From Chaetoderma sp. LZ-2023a (taxonomy: Eukaryota; Mollusca; Caudofoveata; Chaetodermatida; Chaetodermatidae), in the NCBI GenBank assembly GCA_034401795.1, contig CM067366.1, forward strand, positions 68,626,014 through 68,690,013: 64,000 nucleotides of DNA. The letters are read 5' to 3'. Below the pieces are notes generated by a model. That model worked only from the letters and a program-made list of their open reading frames with translations, was not told the origin of the DNA and did not search any database. Each line of letters opens with the position of its first letter. Positions within the stretch are counted from its first letter, which is position 1. Of the stretch, positions 1 to 63,127 are shown one piece after another. A program made the translations under genes and the position numbers.

Positions 1-190
1 TTTGACTGGCTTGCTGCAGGTAAAGAGAAAAGTATTTTTTTTAATTTACCACTGTAATTACTGGCTCGATAATCGAGCCAGTCATTCCAGTGGGAAATTA
101 AAAAAAATACTCATCTCTTTACCTGCAGATGGTCATTCAATAAGAAAATAGTTTGATTTTCTTGACCAAATTTGACCATTAAAGGGTTAA
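1..190 (+). mobile_element. P-family palindromic MITE (copy 1, cut by window edge)
   Basis: Hairpin core GACTGGCTCGATAATCGAG flanked by inverted inner arms; B-type right arm; ends TTAAAGGG-TTAA at 187-190. Confidence 0.88.
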
Positions 191-789
191 ATAAATTATC
201 AGGTTTTTTATGGCTGCCATTATCATCCAATATTCAGTATAAAAAAAAGTCTATACATGACATTAACTACATAATAGGATATGATACAGAATGACAACAA
301 ATCTATCATCCATGATGTTAAAAGAAATCTCTGGTAAACTAGCCTTTGTGCCTAACATTACAAACTGTCATATAGCTACATTACCCTTGGAGAGAATGGT
401 CCCATTCACCCATTGGGCTTTCGGGTCAGCCTGGAGTCAAGGTTACAGTGACCTCTTCTCAAAGTAAGTCATGATAGTACCCAATCATTGTAAATCTCAC
501 TAAGCCTATTACCCTCTAGGTGTTGAAGGTTCACAAGGTCAATGTTAGTGATCGGGGAACAGAAATCACATTCTAATCCAACTCTGACTTTGACGAGTCA
601 TTAGAATACTTTATAAGCATATTACAATGGGGGTGGGCCCGGTGGGGGTTGGTGGTTGATGTATATACTTAATTTGAATTAGTACGTATTAGTAGACAGT
701 TAAAGGTTGGCATCTCAGTGAGCATACCAAAAATGTGATGACAATATCTTGCTTTATAACCTTCCCTTGACCAATTACATCTAAGCACG
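191..789. other. no gene seen
   Basis: AT-rich. The part around 330-470 is open but carries T-like words (GGAGTCAAGGTTACAGTGACC), so it is likely an old repeat. Confidence 0.5.
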
Positions 790-1405
790 TCATTGTCTTT
801 GATAAAATGCTGGGATATTAAAATCTCTGTCTGTCTATCTGTCACTCTATCCTCCAAACATGTTTGGGAGGAATTTAACCAAATTTGATATAATTGTGCT
901 TTGCAAGACGACGTTTAGATTTGGCTCCGCGCCTTGGGGATCAAGGGGTGGGGTCAAAAGTTCAAATATCCTAAAAACTGTCCGTAACGCTATCTCCTCC
1001 AAAACCACTCTGTGGAATTCAAACAATTTTGGTATGTAGATTGCCCATATAATTGTGGATTGTGTGATGACATTTATGTTTGTCTCCGTCTGCAGGAGAT
1101 GTCAGGGCTAGCACCAAAGGTCAAATATCCTAAAAACTATGTGTCACGCTATCTCCTCCAAAACTGTTAATCCGGAAACATTTTAAAATGGTACTCCTTC
1201 AGTCAATAACCCGATTTCAATAAAACGTGGGTGGAACGATCCTATGACATTAGGCTTTCGACATATTAAACGAGAGTCTTGATTGGTCAATTTTTTGGTG
1301 CCCATCTTGGATTTTCTGAAAATCATCCATCATGTTTATTTAAATGCAAATGGTTTAAATATCAATGGTCCAGGTGAGCGCCACAGGCCCTTGGGCCTCT
1401 AGTTT
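790..1405 (+). repeat. S-family repeat, 3' part
   Basis: Diverged ~150-bp units ending with the family terminus CCAGGTGAGCG...GGCCCTTGGGCCTCT. Confidence 0.7.
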
Positions 1406-1570
1406 AGAAAGACCTTTACCTTCAATCTGAGATTTATTGTTAAGCTTGAGTACAGTTACTTCAATGAAATTGTTGTTGTCATGGGATTTTATTTTTATTT
1501 TTAAGCCTGTTTCTTGTGTTGGCATCTTGTTACAGCAATATCTACCTATATCCCATATTATGTACTACGT

Positions 1571-1727
1571 CAAGTATTTTTGAAGATTTACCACTGGAAT
1601 GCCTGGCCTGATAACCGAGTCGGTCATTCCAGTGGTAAATTTTCAAAAATATGCTTGTCCTGCAATATGGACATTCAGTAAGCAAATATTTTGATTTTTT
1701 TTTAACAAATCTAGCCTTTAAGGGTGA
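1571..1727 (+). mobile_element. P-family MITE (copy 2, left end lost)
   Basis: Core and right B arm are present; the left outer arm is not recognisable. Confidence 0.75.
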
Positions 1728-1886
1728 AGATTTACTAATTTTCATCTCACTTAAGCTCATCTTTATATTGGTCTTTACAGTCAGGACTCGGGATATGATG
1801 TAATATATATCAAATGAAATATCCCATGAAACATAAGATGATTTCCTGTCTGTCTATCAGATAAACATAATTACTCATAAATATTA

Positions 1887-2118
1887 TTAACCCGTAAACA
1901 CTTCAGCTGGCAAAAAATGGCTTCCCCACTGGTTTGTAAAATGTCCATTCGCACACCAAGAGAAGACTATTTTAAAAAATTTATCAGTAGAATGACTGGC
2001 TTGATAACTGAGCCAGTCCTGCCAGTGGTAAATTTTCTCAAAAATATCCTCTTGGTCTGCAAATAGAAATTTTCTTTGAGAAAATTGAAAATATTTTTTA
2101 ACAAATTTTAAGGGTTAA
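1887..2118 (+). mobile_element. P-family MITE (copy 3)
   Basis: TTAA-CCCGTAAACAC left end (A arm), core hairpin, C-type right arm ending AAGGG-TTAA. Confidence 0.88.
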
Positions 2119-2168
2119 TGTAAGGAATTAAGGTTCTCACGAAGTTGTTAATGTCAAATGGACTTCCA

Positions 2169-2545
2169 GCAACAGTGCAAGCCTGGAAATAGCAGTGTCC
2201 AACACTTTGTCAGGCACCCTCTACTTAGTACCAGACCATCCAGAATTTGCTGCCTGTCAACACTATTCTACTTCACAGTGTTCTTTACTTGAACGTATTA
2301 GAAACATAACAAAAAGCAACTAATCGTGTGTCATAATGATTGTGATACACCTTAGGTAGATGAATAGTTTATGGCTTTATCAACACCTGTACGCAGACTT
2401 TTGTTGCACACTGCAAGTACTGGCCCTGTCTAAATCTGTATATGACAAAATTTCAGGAAAAGGCAAGACTGTGCTTGACATTTGATAGTTTGGTGCCTGA
2501 CAATGTCCTTGACAGGCACCTTATTTCCAGGCTTGCAGTGCAACA
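2169..2545. repeat. inverted repeat with ~270-bp spacer
   Basis: Arms 2169-2218 and 2489-2545 share GCAAGCCTGGAAATA and TTGTCAGGCACC in inverse order. Likely an old DNA element. Confidence 0.7.
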
Positions 2546-2695
2546 CTGTTTCCAAAATCGACTACAATGTACAACCAACACCAAATCATCATCATCATCG
2601 CGGCTGCTGAAGAACTGCAACAAGCATTCTGACAGGAGCATCGCCATGATTGAGGGGTGACAATTGAAAAAATAGGATGGGGTTTGAGGTGGGCA

Positions 2696-2736
2696 TGTGT
2701 GTGTGAGTGCGCGCGCGCGCGTGCGTGCGTGCATGG
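2696..2736. repeat. GT/GC alternating tract
   Basis: GTGTGTGAGTGCGCGCGCGC then GTGCGTGCGTGC, about 110 bp before the DIRS element. Confidence 0.9.
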
Positions 2737-2846
2737 ATACACTTTTAAGTAGCAATGCATCTTAAACAATGATTGACTAACAAGCTAATAACACGAGCTG
2801 TTTGTCAATTTTTATGTCGGTGCATATGTATGACTGCCAGTCATTA

Positions 2847-3124
2847 GTTGTTATTACACCACAAAAACATCCATTACCGTTCAATCACTACTTGCTAAAT
2901 CAATTATCTGCATTTAGCTACCAGAATAAGATTTTTATGCTTGCATACACTCCTCCCCATGCCTATTCCTATAAATATGGACCCTCAACCAGGCTACTGG
3001 TTAGGTCCATCTCCAGTATATTAACTGATATAGACTGGCACCAGTCTGTACTCACTCCATAGTGATGCCTGTCACTAAGCGCGCATGCGCACTGGCGCCA
3101 AAATAGGAAACGGATTCACTTTTC
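2847..3124. repeat. DIRS left inverted terminal repeat
   Basis: Matches the reverse complement of 9859-10146 along its whole length with scattered differences, including the AAGCGCGC...GCGCACTGG block at its inner end. Its outer end (GTTGTTATTACACC) is copied in inverse at 9694-9707. Confidence 0.9.
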
Positions 3125-6847: not shown

Positions 6848-7290
6848 AGGGGGGTATGTCAGGATTAAATATCATGATTCTTACTCCCAAGTCAAGATGG
6901 AGACAATCTCCCAGTTCATTTCCAGTCTAGATCAGGGTATGTGGTTGTTTCCATCGACCAAAATGACGCATTCTTTCATGTTTTCAGAATTGTTCACCGT
7001 CGTTCTATCCATCTCCACGTTTATATAGACGATTGGTTAGTAAAGTAAGTCTTCTTCAATTCTCTCCAGAATTCTTCCAGAGGTTTGCAGTCTGGCATGC
7101 AACCTAGGGTGGATTTAAAATCTAAAGAAATCAAGCCTAGGTCCCTCTCAAATCTTCACGCATCTAGGCATTTCTTTCGATCTGGCCCAGGGTCTAGTCT
7201 TCCCCTCAGATCCAAGAATAGAGGCTGTATCAGTGGCAATGGAAATCCTGTCTTCTTCCATGGTCTGAGCAAGATTTCTGCTAAGAGTGA
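6848..7290 (+). pseudogene. DIRS reverse transcriptase remnant
   Basis: Fragments in shifting frames match DIRS RT: KMETISQFISSLDQGMW near 6895, HVYIDDWL at 7016-7039 (catalytic DD kept), SSSILSRILPEV, and FTHLGISFDLAQGLVFPSD leading into DPRIEAVSVAM. At least one frameshift separates the YIDD frame from the downstream thumb and RNase H frame. Confidence 0.85.
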
Positions 7291-7820
7291 TAGGTTTGAT
7301 GGTCAGCGTAGAGAATGTTATTCCATGGGCGGCACTGATGAGAAGAACCTTCCAAATGTATTTAATGTCCCTTTGGAAGCAGTCGGTTCTCTCTATTCAC
7401 CATCAGATTCCCATCAGAGAACACTTGATTCTTCTTCTAGATTTTTGGAAAGGCCGTTCTCTGCTTCTGATGGGTGTTCCACTGGTAAAGTCCTCCCCTC
7501 AGGCGATTATCTTCACAGACGCTTCTCAGGAGGGATCGGGAGTGGTCTGGGACTCCCTGTCGGTTTCCGGTCTTTGGTCCCTGGAGGAATCGTCAGCTCA
7601 TATCAACATTCTGGAATTGTGTGCTGTCAAGAAGGCTCTCCTTTCATGGTCAGATCGTGTGATAGGTCTCAAAGTCTCGATTCGGTCGAACAATTCGACA
7701 GTGGTCTCTTATATCAACAGGCAGGGGGGTACAAGGTCATCCCTCCTTTGTCTAGAAGTGTGGAACCTTCTCTTATGGTGTCGCAATAATCAGATTCTTC
7801 TTATGTCCCTGGCAGTCTGA
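7287..7820 (+). pseudogene. DIRS RNase H domain remnant
   Basis: A 177-codon open frame carries the RNase H signature: IIFTDASQEGSG (first Asp), SLEESSAHINILELCAV (Glu), and VSIRSNNSTVVSYINRQGG. The last motif normally reads RSDN, so the catalytic Asp has become Asn. Further downstream, CRNNQILLMSLAV and a shifted GSLNFLADQLS continue the family pattern. Confidence 0.88.
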
Positions 7821-7839
7821 ATTTTCTTGCGGACCAACT

Positions 7840-8100
7840 GTCATGTCCCAGCAAATTCTCCCACACAGAGTGGCAGTTAATGAGGTCAGTTGTCAAAGCA
7901 ATTTTCAGTCTTATGGATCGTCCTCTGGTAGATCTGTTTGCGACATCTCTGAATGCTCAGATCTCCTCTTTCATGTCTCTTTTTCCGGACTGTCAAGCCC
8001 TGGCGGTGGATGCCCTGTCTCAGTCCTGGACAGGAATGTTCGTCTATGCGTTCCCTCCAACGATTTTGATTCCATTAGTGTCAGAGCTCTAGATAAGCAG
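7840..8100 (+). pseudogene. DIRS post-RNase H block (possible Dam-like methylase region)
   Basis: The frame starting at 7880 reads PLVDLFATSLNAQ and ALAVDALSQSWTGMFVYAFPP, a block seen after RNase H in many DIRS elements. In some of them this area has been assigned to a Dam-like methyltransferase, with the FPP as the NPPY-like motif. That functional reading is inference. Confidence 0.7.
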
Positions 8101-8370
8101 GGTTTTTGCGTTTTGACCCAATAAAAATTGCCAATCACTCAATTAATTTTTAACATCATGAGTACTGAAATAGAAAATCACCCAATTAATTTCAGTTCTC
8201 TTGCTAATAATGTATAATGAAGGATGTCAAAGAACAAATCTGCGAGATTCTTTTATAGCTCCTTTTGGCCAAAGAGGATTGGGTTTGTAGACCTTCTAAT
8301 CTAGATCTCCTGGTAGACTTCCCTCGTCTTTTTCATTCTCCCAGGATATTCTGTCTTAAGTAAGAGGTCT

Positions 8371-9345
8371 TTGTCTTCATCTAAACCCAGAAATCTTCAG
8401 TCTGTGTGTTTGGAGAATATTGAAACTAAAGTCTACGAGAATAAAGTTTCTTCAAGATCTCCAGTAATTATCGATTCTTCCAGAAGAGAGTCGAACCGCA
8501 GAGTTTACAAGTGTCGACTTAAAATTTTTGGAGACTGGTGTTCAGACCAATGTCTCGTGCCCGATTCTGTTTCTATTCCCCAAGTATTAGACTTTTTAAC
8601 ATATCTCTTTGATTCCTTCCATTTATCAGCTAATTCGGTTAGGGGATATAGATTTTGTCTGGCATCTTCTCTTCCTTGCCTTCTGTATGCCGATGTCAAG
8701 GACACTAAGACCTTTAATAGTTTTTATTAGAGGTCTAGGCAATATTCGTCCTCCGATAGCTACGCCTTTACCTTCATGGAACTTGGCTTTGGTTCTTCAA
8801 GTGCTGGCAGGCGGTCATGTTGAACCTCTCCTCTATTAGTATTAACGGCCTTTGCTAGAAGGCGTTCAGAATTCATGCTTTTTTCTGCTGAAAGGGAGAG
8901 ATTTATACTTTCAGGAGACGGTTTAGTTTTAATCCCAGAAACTCAGTCTAACCAGTTTCCTGCTAGTCCGATCATTTAAAACTCATTATCGTCTTTTTCG
9001 CCTTCCGATAAACTCTGGTGTCCTGTTAGGGCATTAAGAATGTGCAAACAGCGATCTGATTTCAAAAGATTTAATCCGTCCCTTTTATGGTTTTCTTATG
9101 CGGAAGAGTATTCTAAGCCAATCTCAAAGTTTACGATATCCTGATGGATTTGGGAGACGATTAAGCTTTGTTACGAGATTGCTACTCCGGAACAAATTAA
9201 TCTCTCCCATATTAAAGGTCACACTGTTAGACGAATGGCTTCCTCTTTTGCACTTTTTGCCGGTTCATTTTTAGATGAAGTCATACACGTTGCAGGATGA
9301 AAATCTGACTCCTCTTTTACAACCTTTTATCTGAAAGATCAGAGT
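8371..9345 (+). pseudogene. DIRS tyrosine recombinase remnant
   Basis: Core-binding half at 8480-8720: SNRRVYKCRLKIFGDWC, PQVLDFLTYLFD, LSANSVRGYRFCLASSL. Catalytic half in other frames: LARRRSEF-like at about 8850-8870 (first Arg box), CPVRALRMCKQ at about 9021, GHTVRRMASSFALFAG at about 9222 (HxxR) and FTTFYLKDQ at about 9318 (nucleophile Tyr). Stops and shifts break it, so it is inactive. It sits directly before the ICR, as in DIRS. Confidence 0.85.
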
Positions 9346-9858: not shown

Positions 9859-10179
9859 TCAGAAAAGTTAATCTCTTTCCTATTTGGGCTCCAGTGCGCA
9901 TGCGCAAGCGCGCTTAGTGACAGGTGTCACTATGGAGTGAGTACAGACTGGTGCCAGTCTATATCAGTTAATATACTGGAGATGGACCTAACCAGTAGTT
10001 CGGTTGAGGGTCCATATTTATAAGAATAGGCATGGGGAGGAGTGTATGCAAGCATAAAAATCTTATTCTGGTAGCTAAATGCAGATAATAGATTTAGCAA
10101 GTAGTGATTGAACGGTAAGTATGTTTTTATAGTGGTTAATAAAACAACAGACCAACCCGCAAGGGAGCTCTGTGGGGTT
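9859..10179. repeat. DIRS right inverted terminal repeat, with extension
   Basis: Reverse complement of the left repeat, plus about 33 bp extra at the outer end (10147-10179) that the left repeat lacks. The same asymmetry is known in DIRS1. The extra part is copied in inverse at about 9708-9745. Confidence 0.88.
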
Positions 10180-10294: not shown

Positions 10295-10880
10295 TAATGG
10301 TCAAGATTGGTTATGAAAATTTAAATATTTGCTTTGTGAATGTCCATTTACAAGCCAAGAGAAAATATTTTTGAAAATTTACCACTGTAGTGACTTAAGT
10401 TCTTGACGTAATCATTTCTGTGGTAAAAATTTAAAAAATAGTCTTCTTTTCCACTATAAAGGGCTCTTCCTCGAGACCCTCAGAGGCTATAAAGGGCCAT
10501 TCCTCGAGACCCTCAGAGGCTATAAAGGGCCATTCCTCGAGACCCTCAGAGGCTATAAAGGGCCATTCCTCGAGACCCTCAGAGGCTATAAAGGGCCATT
10601 CCTCGAGACCCTCAGAGGCTATAAAGGGCCATTCCTCGAGACCCTCAGAGGCTATAAAGGGCCATTCCTCGAGACCCTCAGAGGCTATAAAGGGCCCTTC
10701 CTCGAGACCCTCAGAGGCTATAAAGGGACATTCCTCGAGACCCTCAGAGGCTATAAAGGGCCATTCCTCGAGACCCTCAGAGGCTATAAAGGGCCCTCCC
10801 TCGAGACCCTCAGAGGTTATAAAGGGCCATTCCTCGAGACCCTCGGAGGCTATTTTTAGCTTGTCCATTAAAGGCGTAAT
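10295..10880 (-). mobile_element. P-family MITE (copy 4) expanded by a 33-bp minisatellite
   Basis: The B arm lies left and the A arm right (ATTTTTAGCTTGTCCATTAAAGG at 10853-10875). The usual A-arm segment CTCAAGACCACTGCAGAGGCC is replaced by a 12-copy array, so the array grew from MITE sequence. Confidence 0.85.
10453..10852. repeat. 33-bp minisatellite, ~12 copies
   Basis: Head-to-tail 33-bp units containing TATAAAGGGCCATTCC and CTCGAGACCCTCAG, with few substitutions. On the - strand it opens a frame of 11-residue repeats (EGLEEWPFIAS). I do not regard that as a real protein, because the frame depends only on the unit being a multiple of three. Confidence 0.97.
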
Positions 10881-12216: not shown

Positions 12217-15200
12217 GTAAGACAGTCTCATTCACTCTGTTTAATGGACCTTTCCACTTTATCCATCCATCATATATGACGTCAATAAACTACGTGATGT
12301 GTATGTAGAATGACATCATGAATGACTCAGGGAATTCGGAGATCGATCGATCTGAACCCGGCGAAGTATGGGTGGAGCATAGCCAGAGCTGAGCGGGGCA
12401 TGGCTAAAACTGGAAAGGTGCATTCTGGTATACATTTGATATATACCATGTGATGCAACATGGCGTAATATATTAATATTATTAATATATATATACATTA
12501 GTATATCATGAGGGTCAAAATTTGTGATATTCTCGGAGCTGTTTAACCATTTTAAATGATCAAAATGGGCCAAGAAATGCAACAAATTCCATGCAGTGAA
12601 TGTCCATTTACAGCCCAGAAGACAATTTTTGAAAATTTATTACTGGAATAATTGGTTCGATTATTGAGCCAGTAATTTGTGGTAAAATTTTTAAAATACT
12701 CTTCCTGGCCGGCAAATGGACATACCTCAAGACCACTGCAATGGCCAGTTTGGACCAGCTTGCCTATTAAAGAATTAATTAACCCTTTCATGGGCAAATT
12801 TGGTCAAGAAAATCTCAACTTTCTCTTATAAAATATCCATTTGCAGGCCAAGAGAAGACTATTTTTGAAAGTTAACTGCTGGAATGGCTGGCTCGATGAT
12901 CGAGCCGGTTATTCCAGTGGTACATTTTCAAAACTGGTCATGGCCTGCAAATGGATATTTTCCAGGACCGCTGAAGATGCAGTTTTAGGCCGGCTTGAGC
13001 ATTAGAGGGTTAAATAATGGGTTAGATAATCGTGTTGCTGAAGGCGATTACTGCCTTAGATGACACCATTTTCAAAATGAACCCCAGTTACCCATGCTAT
13101 GCTAAAGGTAGCTATCATTTTCTAAGAACTATACCAGCTACAGAAGTTTATTGTGTTGATTATCTTTCAAACTGTTTAAATCAAATGCAAAGAATTTTGC
13201 ATCTTATTATAAATCGCCACGTTGTAGTGTATGTACAGGATATATAAATATAGAGGATGTAAAATGTACCTGAATGCATAAATACATACATGTGGACATA
13301 ATTAGGTCAACCAATTTCATTCAGAATTACATAAAAACTTGTTTTAAAAGATCTAAATATCTAGCTGACATTTGACAGAACATTATTGTTCCTGTCAAAT
13401 TGTCTGTCTTCAATAAATCGTGATTTACTTTATTATGACATTGTTTTAGATAATTTTAAATCACATGTTTGAAAAATCACAAATTTACACAAACCCATTG
13501 CATGAAATATGTAATAAATAATATCTGCAGCATACAGAGTGAAATGTATTGATAATAATTGTCAGTATGTATCATCCTGATCTCTAGAATCGGAAGTATG
13601 GTTTGTGGATAGATGAAGTATATACAGCATTGACAAAAGCTGTAAAATAAAAGGCTGATGAATATTCATGTGTCAGGTGGTAATACAGATTAGATCAAGC
13701 CGGTCTCTGCTGTGGTCTTAACTCTTACCTCTGATATAAAAATTTTAAATCATCAAATTAAATTAAAAGATGAACTGGTGTTCATTTTTGTCTCGCTTGT
13801 GAAGCAGAAAGTGAAACGTAAATGTATCAGTTTTCCGGTGATGACGGCGTCAACAATGTTAAGTTTTTGCACTTTGTAAAACTTCTCAGCTTATGTTTCA
13901 GAATCAGTTAATTCTATTGCAACTAAACTTGGCTATGTGGTTGCCCATGCTGTTAGGAAGCAGCATGATAATAAGAAGGTTACAAGGTCAAAGGTCAGGT
14001 TCACTCCCTGATGTTGATACAAAACTGGGGGTTTTTACGTTAAGTTTTTAGATCTAGCAAAACTTAAGCTTATATTTAAGGATTGGTTAATCATATCGGA
14101 ACTAAGCTAAGATATAAGGTTACCTCTAATGTTATGGAACAGCATGCTGACACTTAAGTCACAACATTTAAAGTCACGGTCACTGTAACCTCTACTAAAC
14201 TTGGTTATATTTTAACGTTAAGTTTTTCCGTTTAGCCAATCTTATCAGCTTATATTTCGGGATTGCTATAGCCTATTGGAATACAACTTGGGTACGTTGT
14301 TACTTATGCTATAAGGATGCAGGATGATGACAGAGAAGTCACCAAGTCAAAGGTCATGGTTATTCTGACCTAAAATACTTTATGTCTCAAGGTTAAGTTC
14401 TTGCGTTTAGCAAATCTTCTCAGGTTATATTTCGTGATTGCTTAACCCTAATGGAACACAACTTGGGTACATGGTTGCTTATACTAAGAAGATGCAGGAT
14501 GATGACAGGCAGATCACCATGTCAAAGGTCAATGTGATTCTGACCTTGCTATTTTTCCTCTGCATTTTCAACATTAAGCTTTTCTATTTAGCAAATCATT
14601 TACATTTATATTTCAGAATTACTTATTACTACCAGAACTAATCTTGGACACATGGTTCCTTATACAATAACGAAGTTGCGTGCTGATAGTGACATCACTA
14701 TGTCCAAAGTCGAGGTCATCGTACCAGGGACAGACCTACCCATTCGCCTATTTGCTTTTGAGAATAATTTTCATGGTTGGCTAATAAAATGTCAAAATTG
14801 GCTAATTCACTGGCTAATACTTTTACATATATCTTGGTAGGTCAGCTCCTCTTAAACTATGATGACACATCTAATTCTTTCCAATATTTTATTTCTCACA
14901 TGACCTGCTGGTCATCTCTTAATTGGTTATTATTAGCCTTAAGATCTAGCGGGATCATAAAGGATTAGATTGATAGGTTATTGGTCAGGCTAAGAAAGTC
15001 CAGGTTTGGCTAATGAAATCCCAAAATAGGCTAATTCACTGGCTAGTGCTTTTACATGTATCTTGGTAGGTCAGTTCCTCTTAATGATTTCAAATGAGTA
15101 GGTCGGTCCCTGCATCGTACCATTGATTTATGACCTCTGTCATGGCTGTATTTCCAATGGTTTTTTTGTTTGGCTACATTTTAGGATTGCTTAATCCTAC

Positions 15201-18200
15201 TGGAACCAAACTTGAACACTTGGCTTCCTAGACTATACCGAGGCAGGATGATGATAATGAGGTCATTAGGTCAAGGCCGTCCTGACATTGCTATTTAAAC
15301 TCTGCTTATCATCGTTAAGTCATTTTATATTTCCGGATTAGTTACTCACATTGGAACAAAATTAGACTACATGGTTACCTTTAATGTTAGGAAGCAGCGT
15401 GATAACATTCAGGTCACTAGGTCAAGGTCACTGTGACAAACAGGAGACGGGTGAGACATTTAATTTTGCGGAATATTTGATCAACACATTACATGGACGA
15501 TATTGCTGTCATAGACAGCAGCATGGCATCCACCAAATTTGTTGAAAAGTGTAAATCAGTTAGGCAGCAATGTCTTCCAATCGATTAATGTTTGAAGTAA
15601 TCGTCAGTACATTTAATATTTTCTGGTTATTTTTAGCTGTACAGTATTATATATGATATCAGACTGCTGACACGAAATCGTTGTTTCTCCTCCGTCGATG
15701 GGTAATTGCAATTGTTAATTGTATATGCTTCTGATAATTGTTGGCTATTAAGCATAAGTGAATTGTCCAATTGGCTAGGGGCTATAGCTGATGCATACAG
15801 TTTATGGCTCTACAACTGTGTTATATAACCAGTAACCACAAGATTCCTGATGGAACATTTCGAGGTGTCGTATGTGCTAACCAATACTTATGAATATTTA
15901 ATGACGTCACAGCTCATAAACAGTTAAGTGACTTGATATTACATAGTGAATCTAGTATGACACTGCTAGTTAAGCTTTTAGCTGCTGGTAGCAAGCCACT
16001 GAGTGTGTGTGTCCCTTTATAGTTTGTTAGTCAGTCAGTCAGTTACAAAGACTTATTCTGGACTGTTTTTCGTATACAGAAATCAAACTTGGGGGAAAGC
16101 TTGCCTATAAAGTCATGAAGATGTGTGTTAAAATATCAAAGGTCATGACAGCGACCAGATTAAAATTATTATTTTGAAAACTATGTGCTTGAAAGACATC
16201 TGTCAATAACTCCTGTTCCACAAGAGAGATCCTGACCATGCTTGGGTGGAAGGTTGCCCGTGGGGTCCTGAAGAGGTGGGTGAATTTCGCGATCAAAAGG
16301 TCAAATATCAACATGACATTGACACCTGCGGCCACCAAGATTCTATCATCTTTGTTATAAAAGTGAACTGAATTCTCATATGCACTGACCTTTTAGACTG
16401 TCTTCCTCTGTTGAAAAAATTAGAATGCCTGAAGTCTTATATAGTACAATATATCAAACTTGTCTATAATGGACGGTGTATAGGGCATTAAAAATGGTCA
16501 TTAACTCTTTAGTGGTCAAGCCTGCCAAACCAGCATTTGCAGTGGTCATGGGGAATAACAGAGGCAGTCATTCCAGGGGTAAATTTTCAAAACTTGTGTT
16601 TTCCTGGCCTGCATATGAACACTCACTAACAAAAATGGTTTTTTGACAAGATTTTATTTTGACAAGTTATGATCATAAATGACAGGGTTAAAGACAGGCA
16701 GTCAGTTCATGCTACTAACTCAGGACATCTTTAAACATTTGTTTGGTTGTCCTCTCCCGACCGACCCGAAAAACCCCTGCCAACTCCAAAGATTGTTATA
16801 TAATTTTTAATTTTCTTATGTGCGCCTGTTGTGAAATAGAATCGACTCCTTTCATCAAAATGGGTTCAAATAACCTTTAGAATCATTTTACTTTATAGTT
16901 TCTGCTTCAATATCAAAGAAAAAACTTCAAGTTTTGTTCTTCAAATTCAATTTTGCAACGAACCAATTCAGGGGGTAAAAAAAATAATTTCTCTACGAAC
17001 TCCAACCCATGGGGTCGGGAGAGAACAAAAGAAAATCTTAAGGATTGCCTCACGTACTATGGCAAATAGCTTTAGGGGCCAAATGCTAGTGATTCATCAA
17101 GACAGGTGGTCTTATTAAGTAGGTGTCCACGGTGACAGGCTGTATTAGCAGTGCCTATGTGAGGATGGTGTGTGATTCATCAAGACAGGTGGTCTTATTG
17201 AGTAGGTGTCCACGGTGACAGGCTGTATTAGCAGTGCCTATGTGAGGATGCTGTTCTCTTGATTGTCTGCTATATCCTCTGCCTGTTCTAAATGAAGGAG
17301 CTACTTATTATTGATCACATCAGGAAAGATGAAGTGTATATTGTATCTAGTTTCTAAACCAATGTGAACTTCTATCTATATGTTTATACCTGTTTGCAAT
17401 CACATCACTGCTAATCAAGTACAAAAACATGTTTAACGGTATAATGGAGGAATCCCGTTTTAGCTATGCCCCGCCCATCTTTAGCTAAGCTCCACCCATG
17501 CTTTGCCTGTGTTGTCAAGCGTTTGTGACAACCTTAGCTACTTCATTCATGACGTATTTGATTATGACATCATCCTACATGTCATATAGTTGATTATGAT
17601 GTAATATGATTGACTGAGAAACTGGAGTCATCCATTGTCACGTCAGCCAAAAATGGTTTCTGTAAAGATCGTGAGAAATAGCTATTTGCTGGCAAAGAGA
17701 AGACTGAAAATTTAGCACTGAAATAACTGGCTCGCTAACAGCTAGGGATTCCAGTAGTAAATTTTCAAAAAGTGATCTTTTGTCCTGTAAATGAAAATTC
17801 ACTAAATAAGAAATTTCTATTTTCCTAGCAAGATTTCACAATTAAAGGGTTAAGAAAAAATATGTCAAAATAATCATGCCATCCTATCCTGCAAGCACCT
17901 CATTGTCAGGTATGTACAAGTCACTAAATGATCAGGCACCACAGTATCTAAGAAAAATGTTTACTTATACGTCAGATGTACATAACCACCCACTCAAATC
18001 TACCATAAATTCTAACTTATATATGCCAAGATCTAAACCTAATGTATACACCTCAAAAGAAGTAAGTCCCCCCCCTAAATATTGGCCAATATTTTCTAAA
18101 AGATGTATCTAATTGTAATGAAATTTCGCACAGATCATTAGTTCGGCTATGGCAACAATCAGCGATAAAGCTTATCCCATATGTCGTGTTTTGCCTCAAT

Positions 18201-24918: not shown

Positions 24919-24950
<32 letters not shown>

Positions 24951-41311: not shown

Positions 41312-41526
41312 TGACCCATTCAGGGTGAAAGCTCCAAAAATCGGACAATTTAAATAGTAGTCTTGTGAAATGTCAATTCGCTGGCCAAGAGAAGACTATC
41401 TTTTTTAATTTACAGATAACCAAGCCAGTCAGTCCAGTGGTAACAATTTTTTAAAAGTCTTCTCTTGGCCTGTAAATGGACATTCAATAAGGAAATAATT
41501 AGATTTTCTTGACCAATTTTAGGCAG
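41312..41526 (+). mobile_element. P-family MITE (copy 24)
   Basis: Core with loop deletion, B arm right; weak outer left arm. Lies in the 3' flank of the SH3 gene. Confidence 0.75.
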
Positions 41527-41832
41527 TAGTGGTTTTATAGCGGTGCTGTTTCTGGAGGTTAATGTTTACCAGAACCGGTGAGTAACAGGCCGTGACAGGT
41601 TGAAGATTTTTGGTGTTTATATCTTCAAGATTCGATGCTACTTAAATGTTCTTATCTGAACTAACCGATTGTGAAGTCTTTTCCGTTTTGGGTAAAGCTT
41701 GTATGTAGAGTTGCTGCGACAACTAACTTTACCAAGAACGCAAAAGATGGATATCAGCTCGCCTCGTAAATAGATGTACTGAACGATATTTGTATTGGAT
41801 ATCCGGGCCTGATCTGACTGAATCTCAGAACT

Positions 41833-46495: not shown

Positions 46496-46721
46496 TTAAT
46501 AAAATTTAAATATGCTTATTGAATGTCCATTTGCAGGCCAAGAGAAGACTATTTTGGAAAATTTACCACTGAAATGACGGGCTCATTTATCGAGCCACTA
46601 GCTCGTTTATCGAGCCAGTCATTCTAGTAGTAAATTTTTAAAAAAATTCTTTTTGGCCCGCCTGTGTTCATTCCTCAAGACCACGGCAGAGGCCAGTTTT
46701 GGCTAGCTTAAAGAGTTTTAA
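46496..46721 (-). mobile_element. P-family MITE (copy 26) with duplicated loop
   Basis: B arm left, A arm right. The loop segment CTCGTTTATCGAGCCA is partly repeated (46572-46617), a possible first step to a tandem array. Confidence 0.85.
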
Positions 46722-46985: not shown

Positions 46986-47210
46986 TTAACACGTCGCTAA
47001 AGTTGGTATAAAAAAATGGCTAATATAATAGTGTTGAAAAATGTCAATCTGCAGATAAAGAGAAGACTATTTTTGAACTGGAATGACTGGCTCAATAACT
47101 AGTCATTCAAGTGATAAATTTGCAAAAATTATCTCGAGATCTACATATAACCATTGTGTAATGAGAAAACTGCCATTTTCTTGAACAGAATTTGATAATT
47201 TAAGGGTTAA
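46986..47210 (+). mobile_element. P-family MITE (copy 27)
   Basis: TTAA borders; diverged A arm, core with deletion, C arm. Confidence 0.78.
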
Positions 47211-47443
47211 AACATCCTGTCTTAAAGGACACCACATTTTCCTACCCTAAATAGTAGATGGCCTCTTTGCCAGGTTTGTCTGAATATATATAATGTTTAG
47301 ATTGCTGTGACTAGAATAGACGATTAGACGACGTTAGATTTGAAAAGGTCCCCCTAAAAGCTGTTGCTGAATGTAAGACATTAACTGCTTGAAATTAGCA
47401 ACACCATTATAAATATCACCATCAGTTAAATGTATGTGTATAA

Positions 47444-47676
47444 TTAGCCCTTTAACACTCATATCAGCCAAAAACAGCGTCTGCAGTGGTCTTGAGAAAT
47501 GTCTGTTTGCAGACCAAGAGAATACTATTTTTGAAACTTTACCAGTGGAATGACTGGCTCGATAGCAGAGCCAGTCATTCCAATGATAAATTTTCAAACA
47601 TAGTCTTCTCTTGGTCTGTAAATCAACATTTCCTGTGAGAAAATTTTCTGACGAATATTAAGTGCTAAAGGATTAA
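47444..47676 (+). mobile_element. P-family MITE (copy 28)
   Basis: A arm left, full hairpin, C arm right; left target TTAG. Confidence 0.87.
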
Positions 47677-47922: not shown

Positions 47923-48405
47923 CTCTGCTTCTTTAATTTATTTATTTTCATTACGATACTGTTATTCTTCATATTATTGATCTGACTTGAAAAAGGATTT
48001 TTGATAAATTATGTATGTAGACATAAAATCAGAAACAATTATTTTTAGTATCTTAATAACCATCATGTTAATCATAGGTCGATCGTTCGATGAGCTTTGA
48101 CAGAAATTTCAAGAAACTGTTATCGCTTTAAAAAAAATGTGTACAATATATGAATGACTGTCTGCTTCATTAGCATACACACACGCACGCACACACTACC
48201 CAAGGTTTTCCCCTTATCGGGTGAGGGTGATGACGCAAATTTACAATTAGCGGCACAATTAGTTGGATAATGTTTAGCAACTGTTTGTATTATATTGTCC
48301 TTTGCATAATATTTTATTGTAAAACTGTCCATGAAATTATATAGATATTTATTTACTTACAACAATGTTTTATGTATACTTTAAAAAAGCATAGCAATCA
48401 GTGTT

Positions 48406-48600
48406 TTAACCCTTTAACACTCAAGTTGGTCAAAAACGGCTTCTTCAGTGGTCTTGAGAAAAAAGTATTTTTGAAAATCTACCCCTGGAATGACTGGCTC
48501 GATAATCGAGCCAGTCATTCCATTGGTAAATTTTCAAAGATTATCTTTTGGCATGCAAATTTGAAATTTTCTTGAACAAAATTGAAGTTTAAAAGGGTAA
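48406..48600 (+). mobile_element. P-family MITE (copy 29)
   Basis: TTAA-CCCTTTAACAC left end, A arm, perfect loop GGCTCGATAATCGAGCC; shortened inner left arm. Confidence 0.87.
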
Positions 48601-49295: not shown

Positions 49296-49596
49296 AATGG
49301 TCCCGTTTTCTATCCATCATATGACGTCTTGATGAACTACGTGGCGCGTAGGATGAGGTCATAATCAATTACGGCATGAATGACTCGATTTAGTCCGTCT
49401 TAACTGCTTAATATTCCGTCGCGTTTTACGAATTGTATGTCTGCTATTTAATAAACGTGCTGTTGAATATTTTGAAACTAATTTGACTGGGCGCTGTTGC
49501 TTCCAACACGGGCAAAGCATGAGTGAAGATTAGCTAGAATGTGGGTGGAGCTTAGTTAGATATGGGCGGGGCATAGCTAAAACTGAACCAGTCCAT
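49296..49596 (-). mobile_element. Q-family MITE
   Basis: AATGGTCCCGTTTTC / AAACTGAACCAGTCCATT ends; half palindrome; truncated middle. A diverged relative fragment follows to about 49,840. Confidence 0.8.
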
Positions 49597-50275: not shown

Positions 50276-50960
50276 GTGGAGGGAGCCTTTTCTAGCTATA
50301 ACTCACCAATTTCTAACTAACCTCCCAATATCTAACTGAGATCCATCCATTTCTAACTATGCCCCACCAATTTCTACCTATGCCCCACCCATTCCTAGCT
50401 ATGCCGTACCCATTTCTAGCTATGCTCCACCCATTCCTACCTATGCCCCACCCATTTCTAGCTATGCCTTACCCATTTGTAGCTATGCCCCATCCATTTC
50501 TATATTTGCCCCACCCATTTCTATCTATGCCCCACCCATTTCTAGCTATGCCTTACCAATTTCTATCTATGCCTTACCCATTTCTAGCTATGCCCCACCC
50601 ATTTCTAGCTATGCCCCACCCATTTCTAGCTATGCCCCACCCATTTCTAGCTATTCCCCACCCATTTCTAGCTATGCCCCACCCATTTCTATATTTGCCC
50701 CACCCATTTCTATCTTTGCCCCACCCATTTCTACCTGTGCCCCACCCATTTCTAGCTATGCCCCACCCATTTCTACCTATGCCCCACCCATTTCTACCTA
50801 TGCCCCACCCATTTCTAACTAAGTTCCACCCACACTTTGCAGGGATAGATTTATATACTTGAACCCTGACTTCTCAATATCTCATTTTCAGAATAACTAT
50901 TTAGGTAAGCTGGTGAATATTTTGAAACAAATCTGACTGGGTGCTGTTGCGGCCAGAGGC
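50276..50960 (+). mobile_element. Q-family MITE expanded by a 21-bp minisatellite
   Basis: The family's 5' part TAGCTATGCCCCACCC is tandemly amplified (50296-50836). It is followed by the usual CCACCCACACTTTGC, GAACCCTGACT and AATATTTTGAAAC parts. The 3' end is missing. Confidence 0.85.
50296..50836. repeat. 21-bp minisatellite, ~25 copies
   Basis: Units built on CTATGCCCCACCCAT + TTCTAG. Because 21 is divisible by three, the + strand has a 167-codon frame of heptads (MPHPFLA). I treat it as a repeat artefact, not a gene. Confidence 0.96.
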
Positions 50961-51562: not shown

Positions 51563-51661
51563 AGTTTTTTATATCCTAAAGAATATACTTTTTCCAGAAT
51601 TTGTCGGTAAAAGGGTTAATATCTTGAAGAATGAAATCTCCATTAGGAACCTGTCACACTA

Positions 51662-51863
51662 TTAACCATATAATGGTCAAGCCGGCCAAAGTGACCTTTG
51701 CAGTGGTCTTGAAGAATGTCCATTTGCAGGCCATGAGAAGACTATTTTATTTATTTGACCATGTGAATTATTGGCCTGATAAAAGACGCAGTCATTCCAG
51801 TGGTAAATTTTAAAAATAGTCTTCTTGGCCTACAAATGGGCATTCACTAAGAATTTAAATTAA
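51662..51863 (+). mobile_element. P-family MITE (copy 30)
   Basis: A arm left, damaged core, B arm right, TTAA borders. Confidence 0.8.
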
Positions 51864-52034: not shown

Positions 52035-52573
52035 GAATAAGTTTTATATCATAAGGAATATACTTTTTCAGTGATTTTTTTTTGGTGAAAGGTTTAAGAA
52101 ATAATCTGCACAATTTTTTTTTTGATGTTGCAACACCTTTCAGTCAAGTTAGTCTCAAAATATTCAACAGACAATTTCTATTCTGTTGGCTTGTGAGGGT
52201 TAGTGTTTGTGTAGCTTGTTATACTTGTCTTGTTATTATAGCATGCCTGTGATATCCAGTCTGTAATCTCTGTTAGTTTATTAGTCTCTTTTAACACTTT
52301 ACTGGTCAAATCAGCAAATTTGGTCAAGAAAATCAAAATAACTGCTTCGTGAATGTTCATTTGCAGGACGATGGAAGACTATTCTGAATATTTACAGTTC
52401 AATACCCCATATGGTTTAGGGGGTTACGAGTCTACTTGATTGATACCAACTTGATCCATATTGGTTTCTGGGTCCAGTAAGATTCATGGTCTTTGCGTGT
52501 GAAGTTGTGGCTTCATGGTTATCAGTATCGTGACTTATCTCCCACTATTACACACAACTGTTGTTTATTGCAG

Positions 52574-52700: not shown

Positions 52701-52759
52701 TAAAAAGAGTTTCAACCGAGTAATGGATTTTTCTATTTCTGAATATTTGTCACTGGAAT

Positions 52760-53038
52760 GAGTGGCTCGATAACTGAGCAGATCATTCCGCTTGATAACT
52801 GAGCAGGTCATTCCGCTTGATAACTGAGCAGGTCATTCCGCTTGATAACTGAGCAGGTCATTCCGCTTGATAACTGAGCAGGTCATTCCGCTTGATAACT
52901 GAGCAAGTCATTCCGCTTGATAACTGAGCAGGTCATTCCGCTTGATAACTGAGCAGGTCATTCCGCTTGATAACTGAGCAGGTCATTCCGCTTGATAACT
53001 GAGCAGGTCATTCCGCTTGATAACTGAGCCAGTCCTTC
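52760..53038. repeat. 25-bp minisatellite, ~11 copies
   Basis: Head-to-tail units CTTGATAACTGAGCAGG + TCATTCCG with almost no variation. The unit is the central loop of the P hairpin, so the array grew from the MITE core. Confidence 0.97.
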
Positions 53039-53489
53039 CAGTGACAAATATTCAGAAATAGAAAAATCCATTACTCGGTTGAAACTGTAGGTACTCAAAA
53101 ATAATCTGCACATGGACGCTCATAGTTTTGTTGACAAACCTTGACAATTGAAGGGTTAATGTAGCCGCCATGTAATACGACCCAGACGTATATACTGATC
53201 TGGCATTTTGTTAGCTTACTAACATACTTAACACTCAGTTCACTGTTTGCTATATGTCACCTGACTTAGGTATCTCAGAAAATTTTAACCTATTCATTCC
53301 CATGGCATCTGGGTTCCGTAGTAAACAAGGTTAGCAGAGGTACATCCCTCCATCGGGTATTCTTAATAGTATCTCTAACTCTAATGCAGTCATTGCTCCA
53401 GGGAACCGTTTCCTGTATTCCTATAAAGAAAATATAAATGACTGTGAGAACGCGCACTTATGCTACTATGCATGCGTCCGAGTCCAAGA

Positions 53490-56829: not shown

Positions 56830-57785
56830 GAGAAAAATTTATTGGAAATTGTCAAATGTATCTTCTCCCTAGCCACTTGTTTTTTTTGTGAAAACTAGAT
56901 TTTATGAAAAATTTACTGGAAATTGTCAAACGTTACTCCTCATTAACCACTTGACATATTTCAAATTACTTTGGCTGGAAGGACCTTATGCATGTAAGCT
57001 TCGGCACTTGTACATAGATATTTAGATTGGTCAATTTTTTGGGTGAAAATCCTAGATTTTATGAAAAATTTACCAGAAATTGTCAAAACGCTACTCCTCT
57101 TTAACCGCTTTAGAGATTTCAACTTACTTTGGCTGGATGGGCCCTATAGGAATAGGCTTCAGAACTTGTATACAGAACTTTGATTGGTTAAGTTTTTTGG
57201 TGAAAACCTTAGATGTTTAAGAAAAATTTACAAGAAATTGTCAAATGTATCTTCTCCTTAGCCACATGGTGGATTTCAACTGAATTTGGCTAGAAGGATT
57301 CTATGGTACTAGGCTGCAGGTACTAGAACTTTTATTAGCCAATTTTTTGGGTAAAAATCTTAGATTTTATGATAAGTTTATGAGAAATTGTAAAAATGCA
57401 CCTCCTAAGCCGCTGGCTGGATTTCAACCGAATTTGGCTAGGAGTACCTTATGGTGGTGCACTCAAAAACTGCTACTCAGAATTTGTATACATGTTTTTG
57501 GGTGAAAATCTTAAGATTTTATGAGAAATTTATTGCAAAATGTCACAATTCAGCTCTTCCTCAGCTGCTTGATGGATTTCACATGAAATTAGATAGAAGG
57601 ACCATATAGTGATAGTTTCCACAACTACCATTCAGAATTTCCATTAGTCAAATTTTCCAATCGCCATCTTAGATTTTCATATCTTCTAGAATTTGAAGTT
57701 AAACGACTTCTCGAGAACCAGTCGGTGGATTTCAACGAAAGTTGGGTTGATGTGGTGATTTGCTCCAGAACTTCCATTCAGAATT
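56830..57785 (+). repeat. S-family repeat units
   Basis: Six or so ~150-bp units (GGGTGAAAATCTTAGATTTT, TCAACCGAATTTGGCTAG); head lost. Confidence 0.78.
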
Positions 57786-59299: not shown

Positions 59300-59305
59300 G
59301 TGAGT

Positions 59306-59538
59306 TTAATCCTTTAAATTTCTTCAAAAAAGTTTCAATTTTCTCAAAGAAAATGTCAATTTGCAGACCAAGAGAAGGCTATTTTTGAAAACTTACCACT
59401 GGAATGACTAACTCAGTTATCGAGCCAGTCATTCCGGTGGTAAATTTTCAAAAATACTCTTGTCTTGGTCTGCAAATAGACATTTCTCAAGACCACTAGA
59501 GAAGCTGGTTTTGGCTGATATGAGTGTTAAAGGGTTGA
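59306..59538 (-). mobile_element. P-family MITE (copy 32)
   Basis: C arm left, hairpin, A arm right ending AAAGGG-TTGA. Starts 7 nt after a strong donor-like AAAG|GTGAGT. Confidence 0.87.
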
Positions 59539-59857
59539 TGATGCATAATTTACTAATTATATCCTCTCGCTTGTCCCAAAAGCAGGGAGATTTTGTTTTC
59601 AGGTCTGTCCACACATCCATCCAAATTTTGTTATGGTAATAAGGAACTGCACATTTTTTATGGTTCAGTCGGTCAATCCATCAATCCATTTGTCTATATG
59701 AGTTTGTGTCTGTTCATCTGTGCAAATTTTGGACCTCGTTAGATAACTAAATTTTCTTAGAGTATAGTGACGAAACTTCATGAGAAGTTTGGCTATGGTA
59801 ACAGGGAATTACACATTATTTTGTGCGTCAGTCTGTCCATCCGTCTTTCTGAACTCG

Positions 59858-60450: not shown

Positions 60451-61031
60451 TCATCCTGGGTGAAGGGTTATCTTTATGAATTGAGTTTGTTGTGTATCAG
60501 CCATTTCAACTCTACAGGCCAAAAACACTAAACTATGTTGCAATATAAGCCCTATTCTGGTGACTTAAAATTCATTTCACTTGTCTTCCAGTCAAATTAA
60601 TTTCAAGATATTCAGCAACTTTCCTGTAAGCTTGCCTTGAACATTGGATACTGAAATTACCCAATTAAATGTGTTAAGATCGTGTTAATGAAAGTTGTTG
60701 CTGTTCGGTTATTCAGTTCCCATCAGCATGATAAATTGAAAATCTTGAAAATGATATCACTGAGAGATGTTCAGATCTAGCCGACAACAGTATTGCAAAA
60801 ATGTCATCGTGATTTTGTTATGTAATAGTATGGTGAATCACTTTCAGGTTATCTTATATCTCAAACTACCAGTCAATTCATTAATTTTCCTCTCCCCATC
60901 TTCTGACACCTGTCACTGGAAAATGAGTTATAAATATCTTTTGAAATGTATATATTGTTTGTTTTTATCCTGTGTGTTTCTGGTGCAGCGATTACAAGAT
61001 TTGGCCAGTTACATGTACATCGGGGATACAT

Positions 61032-61215
61032 TTAACCATTTAATGGTCAAAATCGGTCCAAAAAATAAAACTGCTTATTGAATGTCCATTCGGATTATCG
61101 AGGCAGTCATTCCAGTGGTAAATTTTCAAAAATTGTCTATGTCCTTCAAGTAGACATTCCACAGGACCACTACCACCGAGGCTGATTTTGGCCGACTTCA
61201 CCATTAAATGATTAA
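61032..61215 (-). mobile_element. P-family MITE (copy 33, left inner arm deleted)
   Basis: TTAA-CCATTTAATGG left end (B arm), half hairpin, A arm; ends at TTAA. Confidence 0.84.
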
Positions 61216-61397
61216 GAAAAACCTTATACAACACCAAAATGTCCTCTATAGAGAGGTTATCTTTTAGTACATATCTGTGTGTAAATGAGATGTCCCTTTG
61301 AGCCACATGAATGTGGTGCTTGAAAGCAGGTGGTCTTTAAACCACCCATTTCCATGAAATACCATCTACCCATAGAAATCTTATATGCTCCCTCCCG

Positions 61398-61553
61398 GTA
61401 ATGGCTTCTGTACAGTAATATTGTGAAATGTCCATATGCAGATGAGAATAATATTTTAGAAAGCTTATAAGTGAAGTGACTATCAACAACCGAGCCAGTC
61501 CTTTCAGTGTTAAATTGTTTAAAATATGCAAATTGAAAAGTGAGTTCACCATA
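61398..61553 (+). mobile_element. P-family MITE (copy 34, diverged)
   Basis: A arm and core recognisable; both ends eroded. Confidence 0.65.
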
Positions 61554-61724
61554 TGTTTTAAAATCGCTCTACAAGTTGCAGAATGTTCCAGAGCTTACCC
61601 CATGCAAGGAGCTTGTTAATAACAATGTAACTTTTAAGTTTTTTCAACAATTAACCTTCAAACCCATTAGCAATATTTATCTGACGTGTGCTTTATAACG
61701 CTAAACAGTTTAATTTTAACCTAG

Positions 61725-61880
61725 AAATTGCTGGAACAGCGGGTGATGTGTCATGGAATGATCAGACAATCTGCGGATGAAATGCTAAGAATCACGTAGC
61801 GGAATTGTGGAGGTTAAAACGTGATCACAATCATCGGAAGCCACTGTTGTCAAAGAAATTGAACCCAAGGAGCTCTGAAG
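61725..61880 (+). pseudogene. candidate exon with a frameshift
   Basis: Acceptor-like TTTTAACCTAG and donor CTGAAG|GTAATT. The first half reads KLLEQRVMCHGMIRQSADEM in one frame; the second reads AELWRLKRDHNHRKPLLSKK in the next. Both halves look like protein, so a 1-nt indel or assembly error may split a real exon. Function unknown. Confidence 0.35.
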
Positions 61881-61973
61881 GTAATTAGCTTAATTACTTT
61901 TGCATACCTGAACTCCAACATGCAGAATTCATATGCATACAAGGAAGCTATTAAGAATTTTGAAACTAATTAG

Positions 61974-62800
61974 GTCCCTACACCTGAAGGTGGAGAAGCC
62001 CTATAATCACTGCATCCGTCCATCTGTGTCTGTCCACAATATCTCATAAACAGCATATCATACAGAACTGTTTAAGATATTTTAATGAAACTTGGTATAT
62101 GCCTCACTTATGATAGGCAGATATACATTTTGAAGGATTCACCTTTATTGGTCCAAGACTTTATGAAATTAGGTTTTTCAATGCAAAAACTCACTATTTT
62201 TATTGATGTTCTCGTAAACATCATATAATACAGAATCTCTTAAGATAATTTAATGAAGCTTGCCAGGTGGCTTCTTTATGATGGGTAGATATGCCTTTTG
62301 AAGGATTCGCCTTTGTAAGTTCAAGATTTTGGGTGAAAATGGGCTTTTTAATGAAAAAATTAACGATTTTTGTCAAAGTTTTCGTAAACAGCATATCATA
62401 CATAATCGTTTAAAATAATTTAATGATACTTGCCAGGTGGCTTCTTTATGATTGGGTAGAAGAGGTGCCTTTTGATGGATTCACATTTATAGGACCTAGA
62501 ACTTTGAGTAAAAATGGGCTGTTTAATGCAAAAGCTCAAAATTTGTGTCTATGTTCTCATAAACAACATATCACTACAGAATCACTTGAAATAAGTTAAT
62601 GAAACTTGGCAGGTGGCCCAGGTATGTAGAGTAGATGTTCATTTTGAAGTATTCACCTTTATAGGTCCAAGAATTTGGATAAAATTGCATTTTTTAAGGC
62701 AAAACCTCAGGATTTTTGTCCATGTTCTTGTAAGCAGCATATCATACAGAATCACTTAATATGACTTAGTGAAACTTGGCAGATGGCTTCTTTATGAGTA
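61974..62800 (+). repeat. U-family tandem-unit repeat (~5 units of ~170 bp)
   Basis: Units repeat CATATCATACAGAATC, TTTAATGAAACTTGGCAGG, TTGAAGGATTCACCTTTAT and AAAATGGGCTTTTTAATGC. The head carries ACACCTGAAGGTGGAG, a short hairpin. Confidence 0.85.
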
Positions 62801-62909
62801 GATCTTTTTATGGGATGTTTAGTATGTATGAAGGTTCAATATATGTTTCCAATGTTTGCAAAACAAATGATAAAACAAATATGCAGCCAGTGTCTTCGTA
62901 TGGCGACAC

Positions 62910-63127
62910 AAAATGCTTCTAAAATGGCTTCTGCAGTGGTCATGAGAAATGTGCATTTGCAGACCAAGAGAAGAGTATTTTTTTTTTTAATTTACCACTG
63001 GAATGACTGGCTCGGTTATCGAGCCAGTCATTCCAGTGGTAAATATTAAAAAATAGGCTTCTCTTCGTCTGCAAATTAACATTTTCTATGAGAAATTTGA
63101 CATTTTTTAAAACGAATTCGAGGGTTA
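62910..63127 (+). mobile_element. P-family MITE (copy 35)
   Basis: A arm left, very good hairpin with GGTTATCGAGCC loop, C arm right ending GAGGG-TTAA. Confidence 0.88.

Follow-up and report, generated by a model that had tools for sequence, protein, structure and literature searches.

Among the closest described counterparts of the transposon family reported here are the CMITEs of Acropora, small noncoding miniature inverted-repeat transposable elements (MITEs) with a TTAA duplication and tips starting with CCC[T/C]. The paper describing them reports two tips that match over 13 to 14 bp in families I to III, a piggyBac with identical tips in the same genome for family I, and a conserved interior combined with changing tips across families (PMC2872659). 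We analyzed a stretch of 64,000 nt from the caudofoveate mollusc Chaetoderma sp. LZ-2023a (GenBank assembly GCA_034401795.1, contig CM067366.1, positions 68,626,014 to 68,690,013 of the forward strand), hereafter the window, together with the 2.44-Gb genome, and describe a MITE family with the same TTAA duplication, tip start, small noncoding format, and shared interior under different tips. Size and number set the two apart: CMITEs measure about 100 bp, with ~1,600 copies estimated in A. millepora (PMC2872659), whereas the unit described here is ~235 bp long, contains a 130-bp hairpin, and is represented by 20,357 near-exact copies of one tip (tip A). The main text of the CMITE paper contains none of the terms palindrom, asymmetr, secondary structure, or gene conversion.

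Unlike left and right ends are described for piggyBac and piggyBat, with subterminal palindromes bound by a transposase dimer (PMC11707139). Those ends belong to autonomous elements, whereas the unlike ends of the present MITE flank a central hairpin that leaves no coding room. The Xenopus T2-MITE/Kolobok system also targets TTAA, and T2-MITE (Xmix) is reported to have amplified an internal repeat, as has window copy 52733-53160, but T2-MITE tips read AGGRR (RR..YY) instead of the CCC..GGG found here (PMC6004289). Template switching between inverted-repeat arms is described as homogenizing the arms and inverting the spacer in yeast coding genes and in RNA genes (PMC8604942; PMC8794818); in the present case, it would hit many copies of one MITE and yield a third product, a switch of end class to A/A or B/B (copies with two A or two B ends). 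Neither piggyBac-type MITEs nor template switching at inverted repeats is a new phenomenon. New here are an excess of changes shared between the arms of single copies, inverted loops, and equally rare A/A and B/B copies. Literature searches, which do not prove absence, returned neither this MITE family nor arm correction in MITEs, and a text search for TTAACCCTTTAA gave matches that, by their titles, concern bacteria, brain vesicles, and a yeast.

A hairpin MITE family with two unlike ends

The ~235-bp unit consists of TTAA, a 13-bp tip (CCCTTTAACACTC), a ~37-nt linker (arm A), a hairpin core, the other linker (arm B), a GGG-ending tip, and TTAA. Two ~64-nt arms with a short loop between them make up the ~130-bp core, which starts some 50 to 55 nt from the TTAA on either side; hairpin spacing is thus nearly symmetric, and it is the linker sequence that differs between ends. 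Folding of copy 32393-32607 as single-stranded DNA gave a z score of -16.1. The terminal inverted repeats span ~12 to 19 bp; by eye, the A tip CCCTTTAACACTC pairs with the B tip CCCTTTAACCCTC, and a second tip pair reads CCCTTTAATGGTC and CCCTTTAATGGCC.

Arms A and B are distinct sequences. Genome-wide, exact 15-base inner-arm words at hairpin distance, a count that takes in only copies with both words intact, revealed 3,457 A/B copies (1,754 and 1,703 by strand), 63 A/A copies, and 57 B/B copies, with no matches to the backward control patterns. Free pairing of ends would give a 1:2:1 ratio; by simple arithmetic from these counts, symmetric copies are ~29 times rarer, and A/B makes up about 97% of the countable copies. 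Two smaller samples were scored copy by copy. On chromosome C1, 60 copies were selected for an exact A tip (the first 60 of 100 listed places); the opposite end was B in 51 of them and unscorable in 8, and one copy was a weak A/A (9.7 versus 5.5 bits). The local sample (245 kb) comprised the window and 20 piggyBac loci, with 69 family stretches (39 and 30, respectively), and both arms were callable in 26 of them: 23 A/B, 3 A/A, and no B/B. Neighbors can lend arms in this local tally, as with the A/A call at 21670, which borrows the A of a neighbor, and the A/B call at 12553, which scores the B of another. Six of the 37 A/A copies analyzed, spread over five contigs, form one small subfamily whose two arms carry different marks. 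Transposition would, on a natural reading, need one A and one B end, because piggyBac and piggyBat have unlike ends, and the scarcity of symmetric copies is consistent with the idea that transposases of the piggyBac superfamily use two unlike ends. The A/A subfamily speaks against a strict requirement.

The family further splits into two subfamilies around a common core, with first-type tips (CCCTTTAACxCTC) or second-type tips (CCCTTTAATGGxCA) at both ends. Tip types agreed at both ends in 19 of the 20 local stretches, fragments included, that were scorable at both: ten were first/first (one of them the A/A copy 23128), nine were second/second, and one, a fragment, was mixed, with none of the opposite mix. 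We suspect that the second-type subfamily is the older one. Copies diverge from the consensus by about 6 to 11%.

A profile built from eight copies (E ≤ 1e-3) matched 39 stretches on both strands of the window, totaling 6,975 bp (10.9%), and gave no matches in the reversed window, which served as a control. We read these stretches as about 36 copies, because three copies look split in two by the profile. TTAACCCTTTAA at up to one mismatch occurs 28 times in the window against 0.63 expected (11 occurrences are exact), and the core word GACTGGCTCGATAATCGAG at up to three mismatches occurs 27 times against 0.00 expected. Wear is heavy: TTAA lies no more than a few bases from the profile boundary on each side in just 12 of the 39 stretches. 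These figures bear out the initial annotation, made from the letters of the window, which had spoken of about 35 copies covering about 12% of the window and of a ~120-bp hairpin core; its claim that unequal outer arms give each copy an orientation now holds genome-wide, and the additional arm that it called C is, we would guess, the B arm of the second subfamily.

At the genome scale, the 26-base A tip at up to one mismatch matched 20,357 places and its backward pattern none. A near-exact A tip is present in 6 of the 69 local stretches, all six in the window, and in none of the 30 in the piggyBac loci; scaling the 20,357 tips by 69/6 suggests, as a very rough figure, on the order of 10^5 copies in the genome. 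The family accounts for 5,329 bases (2.9%) of the piggyBac-loci sample (181,321 bases); the window is richer, neither of the two being a random draw. Near-exact A tips are ~eleven times denser in the window (6 in 64 kb) than in the genome on average (20,357 in 2.44 Gb). Two core patterns had no match in viral contigs, and an Rfam scan of the window recovered no families at gathering scores.

Changes shared between arms and inverted loops

Both half-arms could be aligned in 83 copies, i.e., 42 of the 69 local stretches and 41 of the 60 C1 copies (five sharing flanks were dropped). With the subfamily-linked half-arm column 14 left out, derived bases common to both arms of the same copy numbered 53, against 18.1 (standard deviation [SD], 4.1) in permuted data (0 of 5,000). 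The excess persisted when arms were dealt in a divergence-matched manner (25.6 expected; SD, 5.2) and when two extreme copies were removed (40 versus 16.3; SD, 3.9), again with 0 of 5,000 in each case. Positions derived in both arms, in register, behaved similarly (88 versus 43.8; SD, 5.7), and sliding the arms by two to eight bases left the counts no more than 1.5 SD from chance. The 53 shared changes divide into 26 that occur in one copy only and 27 that recur in more than one. Eight changes, four of them in a run, are common to the arms of copy L021:8922-9104, and seven are common to those of window copy 14-191; both counts include column 14. Among A/A copies, the 31 outside the A/A subfamily have 17 shared changes against 4.3 (SD, 2.0; 0 of 3,000), and the copy at C5:19963590 consists of two identical 80-nt halves. 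A first count of the single-site arm test, covering the VV class, gave 1,035 copies. Subfamily founders as the source of all shared arm changes were considered and rejected, as the excess survives when the diagnostic column and both extreme copies are left out.

The orientation of the loop relative to A and B also varies. Four loops are inverted and 23 forward in the C1 set (60 copies, five of which share flanks), with 33 unscored; the 69 local stretches include 3 inverted, 17 forward, 3 palindromic, and 46 unscored loops, one of the three inverted ones being in the A/A copy 23128, the orientation of which is arbitrary. An intact A word combined with an inverted loop was found in 403 copies genome-wide, where the inverted class alone was counted. 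The mean number of shared arm changes is higher in copies with inverted loops (1.83 in 6 copies) than in those with forward loops (0.34 in 29 copies), a difference driven by one copy.

Target site and piggyBac transposases

Copy 35828-36042 lies inside another repeat and could be compared with related empty sites. When its flanks are joined around one TTAA, they give a gapless 182-base alignment to L025:6834-7015, and three further window paralogues of the host repeat (at 49500, 28862, and 34580) also have a single TTAA at that point. Because these four related empty sites hold a single TTAA, the tetranucleotide was duplicated when this copy inserted. The host is a second abundant dispersed repeat, partly palindromic (CAAATTAGTTTCAAAATATTCAACAG), that occupies 28746-28862, 34580-34707, and 49358-49500, among other places. 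The MITE termini are CCC..GGG and carry the CC[C/T]T motif; in the 60 C1 copies, TAAAGGGTTAA lies beyond base 150 as an exact match in 16 and within two mismatches in 43. TTAA duplication together with CCC..GGG termini is described as the piggyBac pattern (PMC2872659, PMC10813416, PMC9587614), and the family very probably files as a piggyBac-type MITE.

The genome contains at least 119 matches to PF13843 (piggyBac transposase), with none in 14 control genomes. We read 34 of them, the first 20 loci and then further loci, and could assign ends in five families: PB-a (15 of the first 20 loci, with ends CACGTTGACTGCC; L031 is a further copy), PB-b (L018, L021, and L024), PB-c (L033), PB-d (L034 and L037), and PB-e (L017). 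No convincing end pair was found in L020, L029, L030, L032, L035, L036, L038, L039, L040, L041, and L042. In L034 (995-1210 and 3707-3717), a PB-d copy sits exactly in the inner TTAA of a MITE A tip and is flanked by TTAA on either side.

Of the five families, PB-b has the tip that best matches the MITE. Six ends were read in L018, L021, and L024: in five of them TTAA is followed by CCCTTAGCACTC, and in the remaining one, in L024, by CCCTTTAGCACTC; CCCTTTAGCACTC differs from the MITE tip CCCTTTAACACTC at 1 of 13 bases, and CCCTTAGCACTC is short of one T besides. L018 contains an intact 595-amino-acid open frame with a DDE_Tnp_1_7 match and a subthreshold zinc-finger match (22.5 bits; cutoff, 24), and the closest PDB match of its product is piggyBat (9c0f, 4.4e-72). 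The aspartate motifs, which we take to be the catalytic ones, align between L018 and piggyBat. The single-TTAA empty site, the CCC..GGG tips, the many transposase genes, and the PB-b tip lend support to the mobilization by piggyBac that the initial annotation had proposed. As for the piggyBac-type element with matching ends on which that proposal was staked, the nearest candidate is PB-b, which agrees with the MITE in 12 of 13 tip bases at one of six ends, but no likeness was seen inside (34 of the 119 matches read).

Template switching and alternative explanations

Taken as a whole, the data are probably best explained by a nonautonomous ~235-bp piggyBac-type MITE that is mobilized in trans and undergoes template switching between its arms. 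A piggyBac-superfamily transposase would act in trans by pairing one A end with one B end, much as such enzymes treat their own asymmetric ends, and this would hold ~97% of the countable copies as A/B. In replication, the hairpin core would make the polymerase switch template between arms. Such a switch would copy one arm over the other and sometimes invert the loop, and the copied tract would now and then pass through the outer linker to produce A/A or B/B in equal numbers. Matching private changes, flipped loops, and similar numbers of A/A and B/B (63 and 57) are all predicted by template switching, toward which we lean as the main cause. Several observations nonetheless pull the other way. 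Arms slid by one base also showed raised counts (101 versus 75.7; SD, 8.3), and the signal was weaker in the 41 C1 copies alone (13 versus 5.3; 10 of 5,000, or 101 of 5,000 with divergence matching). Subfamily history might explain part of the arm sharing, as only 26 of the 53 shared changes are private to one copy, and A/A copies can multiply somehow, because six of them form one subfamily. On the side of mobilization, the empty site was tested for one copy only, an element with MITE arms A or B was not found in the 34 of 119 piggyBac loci read, and the likeness of PB-b to the MITE is seen in the tip only. PB-b copies are, moreover, ~99% alike, compared with the 6 to 11% by which MITE copies depart from their consensus, which suggests that they are younger than the MITEs.

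The shared arm changes might instead stem from subfamily founders or from selection on the hairpin, be it for transposase binding or as a structured RNA. We find this source rather doubtful, although the subfamily-linked A/G at half-arm column 14 does change jointly in both arms (12 copies), the 27 recurrent changes among the 53 others point the same way, and transposase-bound subterminal palindromes are described in piggyBac and piggyBat (PMC11707139). What speaks for events within single copies is that 26 of the 53 changes are confined to one copy and that shared changes form runs in the two extreme copies (TTGG in one case; GTA and TTT in the other). Selection on pairing does not need a minority of inverted loops, and the Rfam scan of the window was empty. 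The symmetric copies could likewise have another origin, as breakpoints of inversions caused by crossing over between two copies aligned by their palindromic cores, each inversion yielding one A/A and one B/B. The near-equal counts of 63 and 57 and the two different A arms of copy 23128-23353 agree with such exchanges, but equal numbers are also predicted by template switching or conversion, and the identical halves of C5:19963590 are not expected from exchange between two worn copies. Inversion as the source of the symmetric class is hence unlikely, even if A/A copies whose halves differ, 23128-23353 among them, may have arisen in this way.

As to the mobilizing enzyme, PB-b itself might be considered with its 12 of 13 matching tip bases at one end, the best among the five families. 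Yet no likeness is visible past the tip, only 34 of the 119 piggyBac matches were read, and by their similarity the copies of PB-b seem to be much more recent than those of the MITE. We hold a direct role of PB-b to be improbable and, because no likeness was seen beyond the tip, regard PB-b as a candidate relative of the mobilizer and not as the mobilizer. A Kolobok-type MITE is far less credible still. Kolobok transposases likewise duplicate TTAA, in line with the duplication seen here, but Kolobok termini are given as 5'-RR..YY-3' (PMC9587614) and those of T2-MITE as TTAA plus AGGRR (PMC6004289), whereas the present copies start with CCC and end with GGG next to TTAA. Kolobok transposases were not searched for in the genome, and an autonomous Kolobok with CCCTTTAA tips would revive this assignment.

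We tentatively propose that the family could act as a genome-wide, orientation-marked reporter of template switching in replication. Its hairpins would time and again correct their arms, invert their loops, and change end class, with concerted evolution inside single 130-bp elements and with A/A and B/B copies marking switches or inversions. If true, this process may also preserve the match between the ends and, with it, the ability of the family to transpose over long periods. Left and right are told apart by the unlike outer arms, so that one very abundant family combining a piggyBac-type MITE with template switching would make it possible to count, in a natural genome, the rates at which arms are corrected, loops inverted, and ends switched; the family is a promising natural test bed.

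MITE copies across the window

Coordinates of the individual copies derive from the profile search, with arm, tip, and TTAA calls added where scored. Well-preserved copies include 30349-30585 (+), with arm A at 30350-30405, the hairpin core at 30406-30529, and arm B at 30530-30583, and the A/B copy 59306-59539 (-). TTAA is present at both ends of the A/B copies 1886-2118 (+), 21429-21663 (-), and 32392-32608 (+; the copy with the hairpin z score of -16.1) and on each side of the A/B copy 35828-36042 (-), which lies within the other repeat and has the single-TTAA empty sites. The A/B copy 26151-26337 (-), covered by two profile stretches, has lost its A-side hairpin arm and has TTAA at 26152 and 26334. 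Additional A/B copies are 17638-17854 (+), 22494-22723 (+), 48405-48590 (+), and 62919-63136 (+), the loop of the last being inverted with respect to most scored copies. The A/B copies 12778-13015 (-; both tips), 29990-30204 (+), and 43725-43937 (-) belong to the second subfamily, as do 34848-35069 (+), 51661-51855 (+; A tip), and 12553-12779 (-), which has second-subfamily tips and abuts copy 12778-13015 at TTAATTAA. Copy 47442-47676 (+) has an A tip of the first subfamily. Two A arms unlike each other characterize the A/A copy 23128-23353, whose strand is arbitrary.

Other copies are incomplete or rearranged. Copy 14-191 (+), the one whose arms have seven derived bases in common, has a B arm and a TTAA at 187; copy 1573-1728 (+) has lost arm A, 21670-21868 (+) lacks its B end, and 26479-26700 (+) has a shortened B end. 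Internal deletions affect 40597-40762 (-) and 16500-16654 (+), the latter being two adjoining stretches that we read as a single copy. Copy 41314-41527 (+) is a further member. The loop is duplicated in 46496-46716 (-), and in 52733-53160 (+; two stretches) the loop region has expanded to a 25-bp tandem array of 10.6 units (52765-53029), which is a satellite seed within a transposon. Worn copies lie at 47013-47210 (+) and 10298-10488 (-), which adjoins a 33-bp array. The remaining pieces are fragments: 21868-22026 (-), a core fragment within another repeat (28556-28609, +), A halves at 36556-36667 (-) and 61093-61215 (-), a B half at 52290-52397 (-), and a worn piece at 61400-61526 (+).

Other features of the window

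An inverted pair of 218 nt, 96% complementary (2874-3091 and 9901-10118), encloses ~6.8 kb. Open fragments between the two repeats (7049-8730) resemble reverse transcriptase and recombinase by eye, with no Pfam match for the fragments scanned, and the whole is perhaps a DIRS-type element. Tc1/mariner-like transposase fragments with HTH and DDE_3 matches lie at 18444-19575 (-). An SH3-domain exon (24466-24963, +) and a 576-amino-acid open frame without a Pfam match (32635-34365, +) are probably host gene exons. Tandem arrays occupy 27203-28455 and 56880-57454 (both with units of ~157 bp), 62042-62797 (~170 bp), 50343-50832 (~21 bp), and 10454-10853 (~33 bp).

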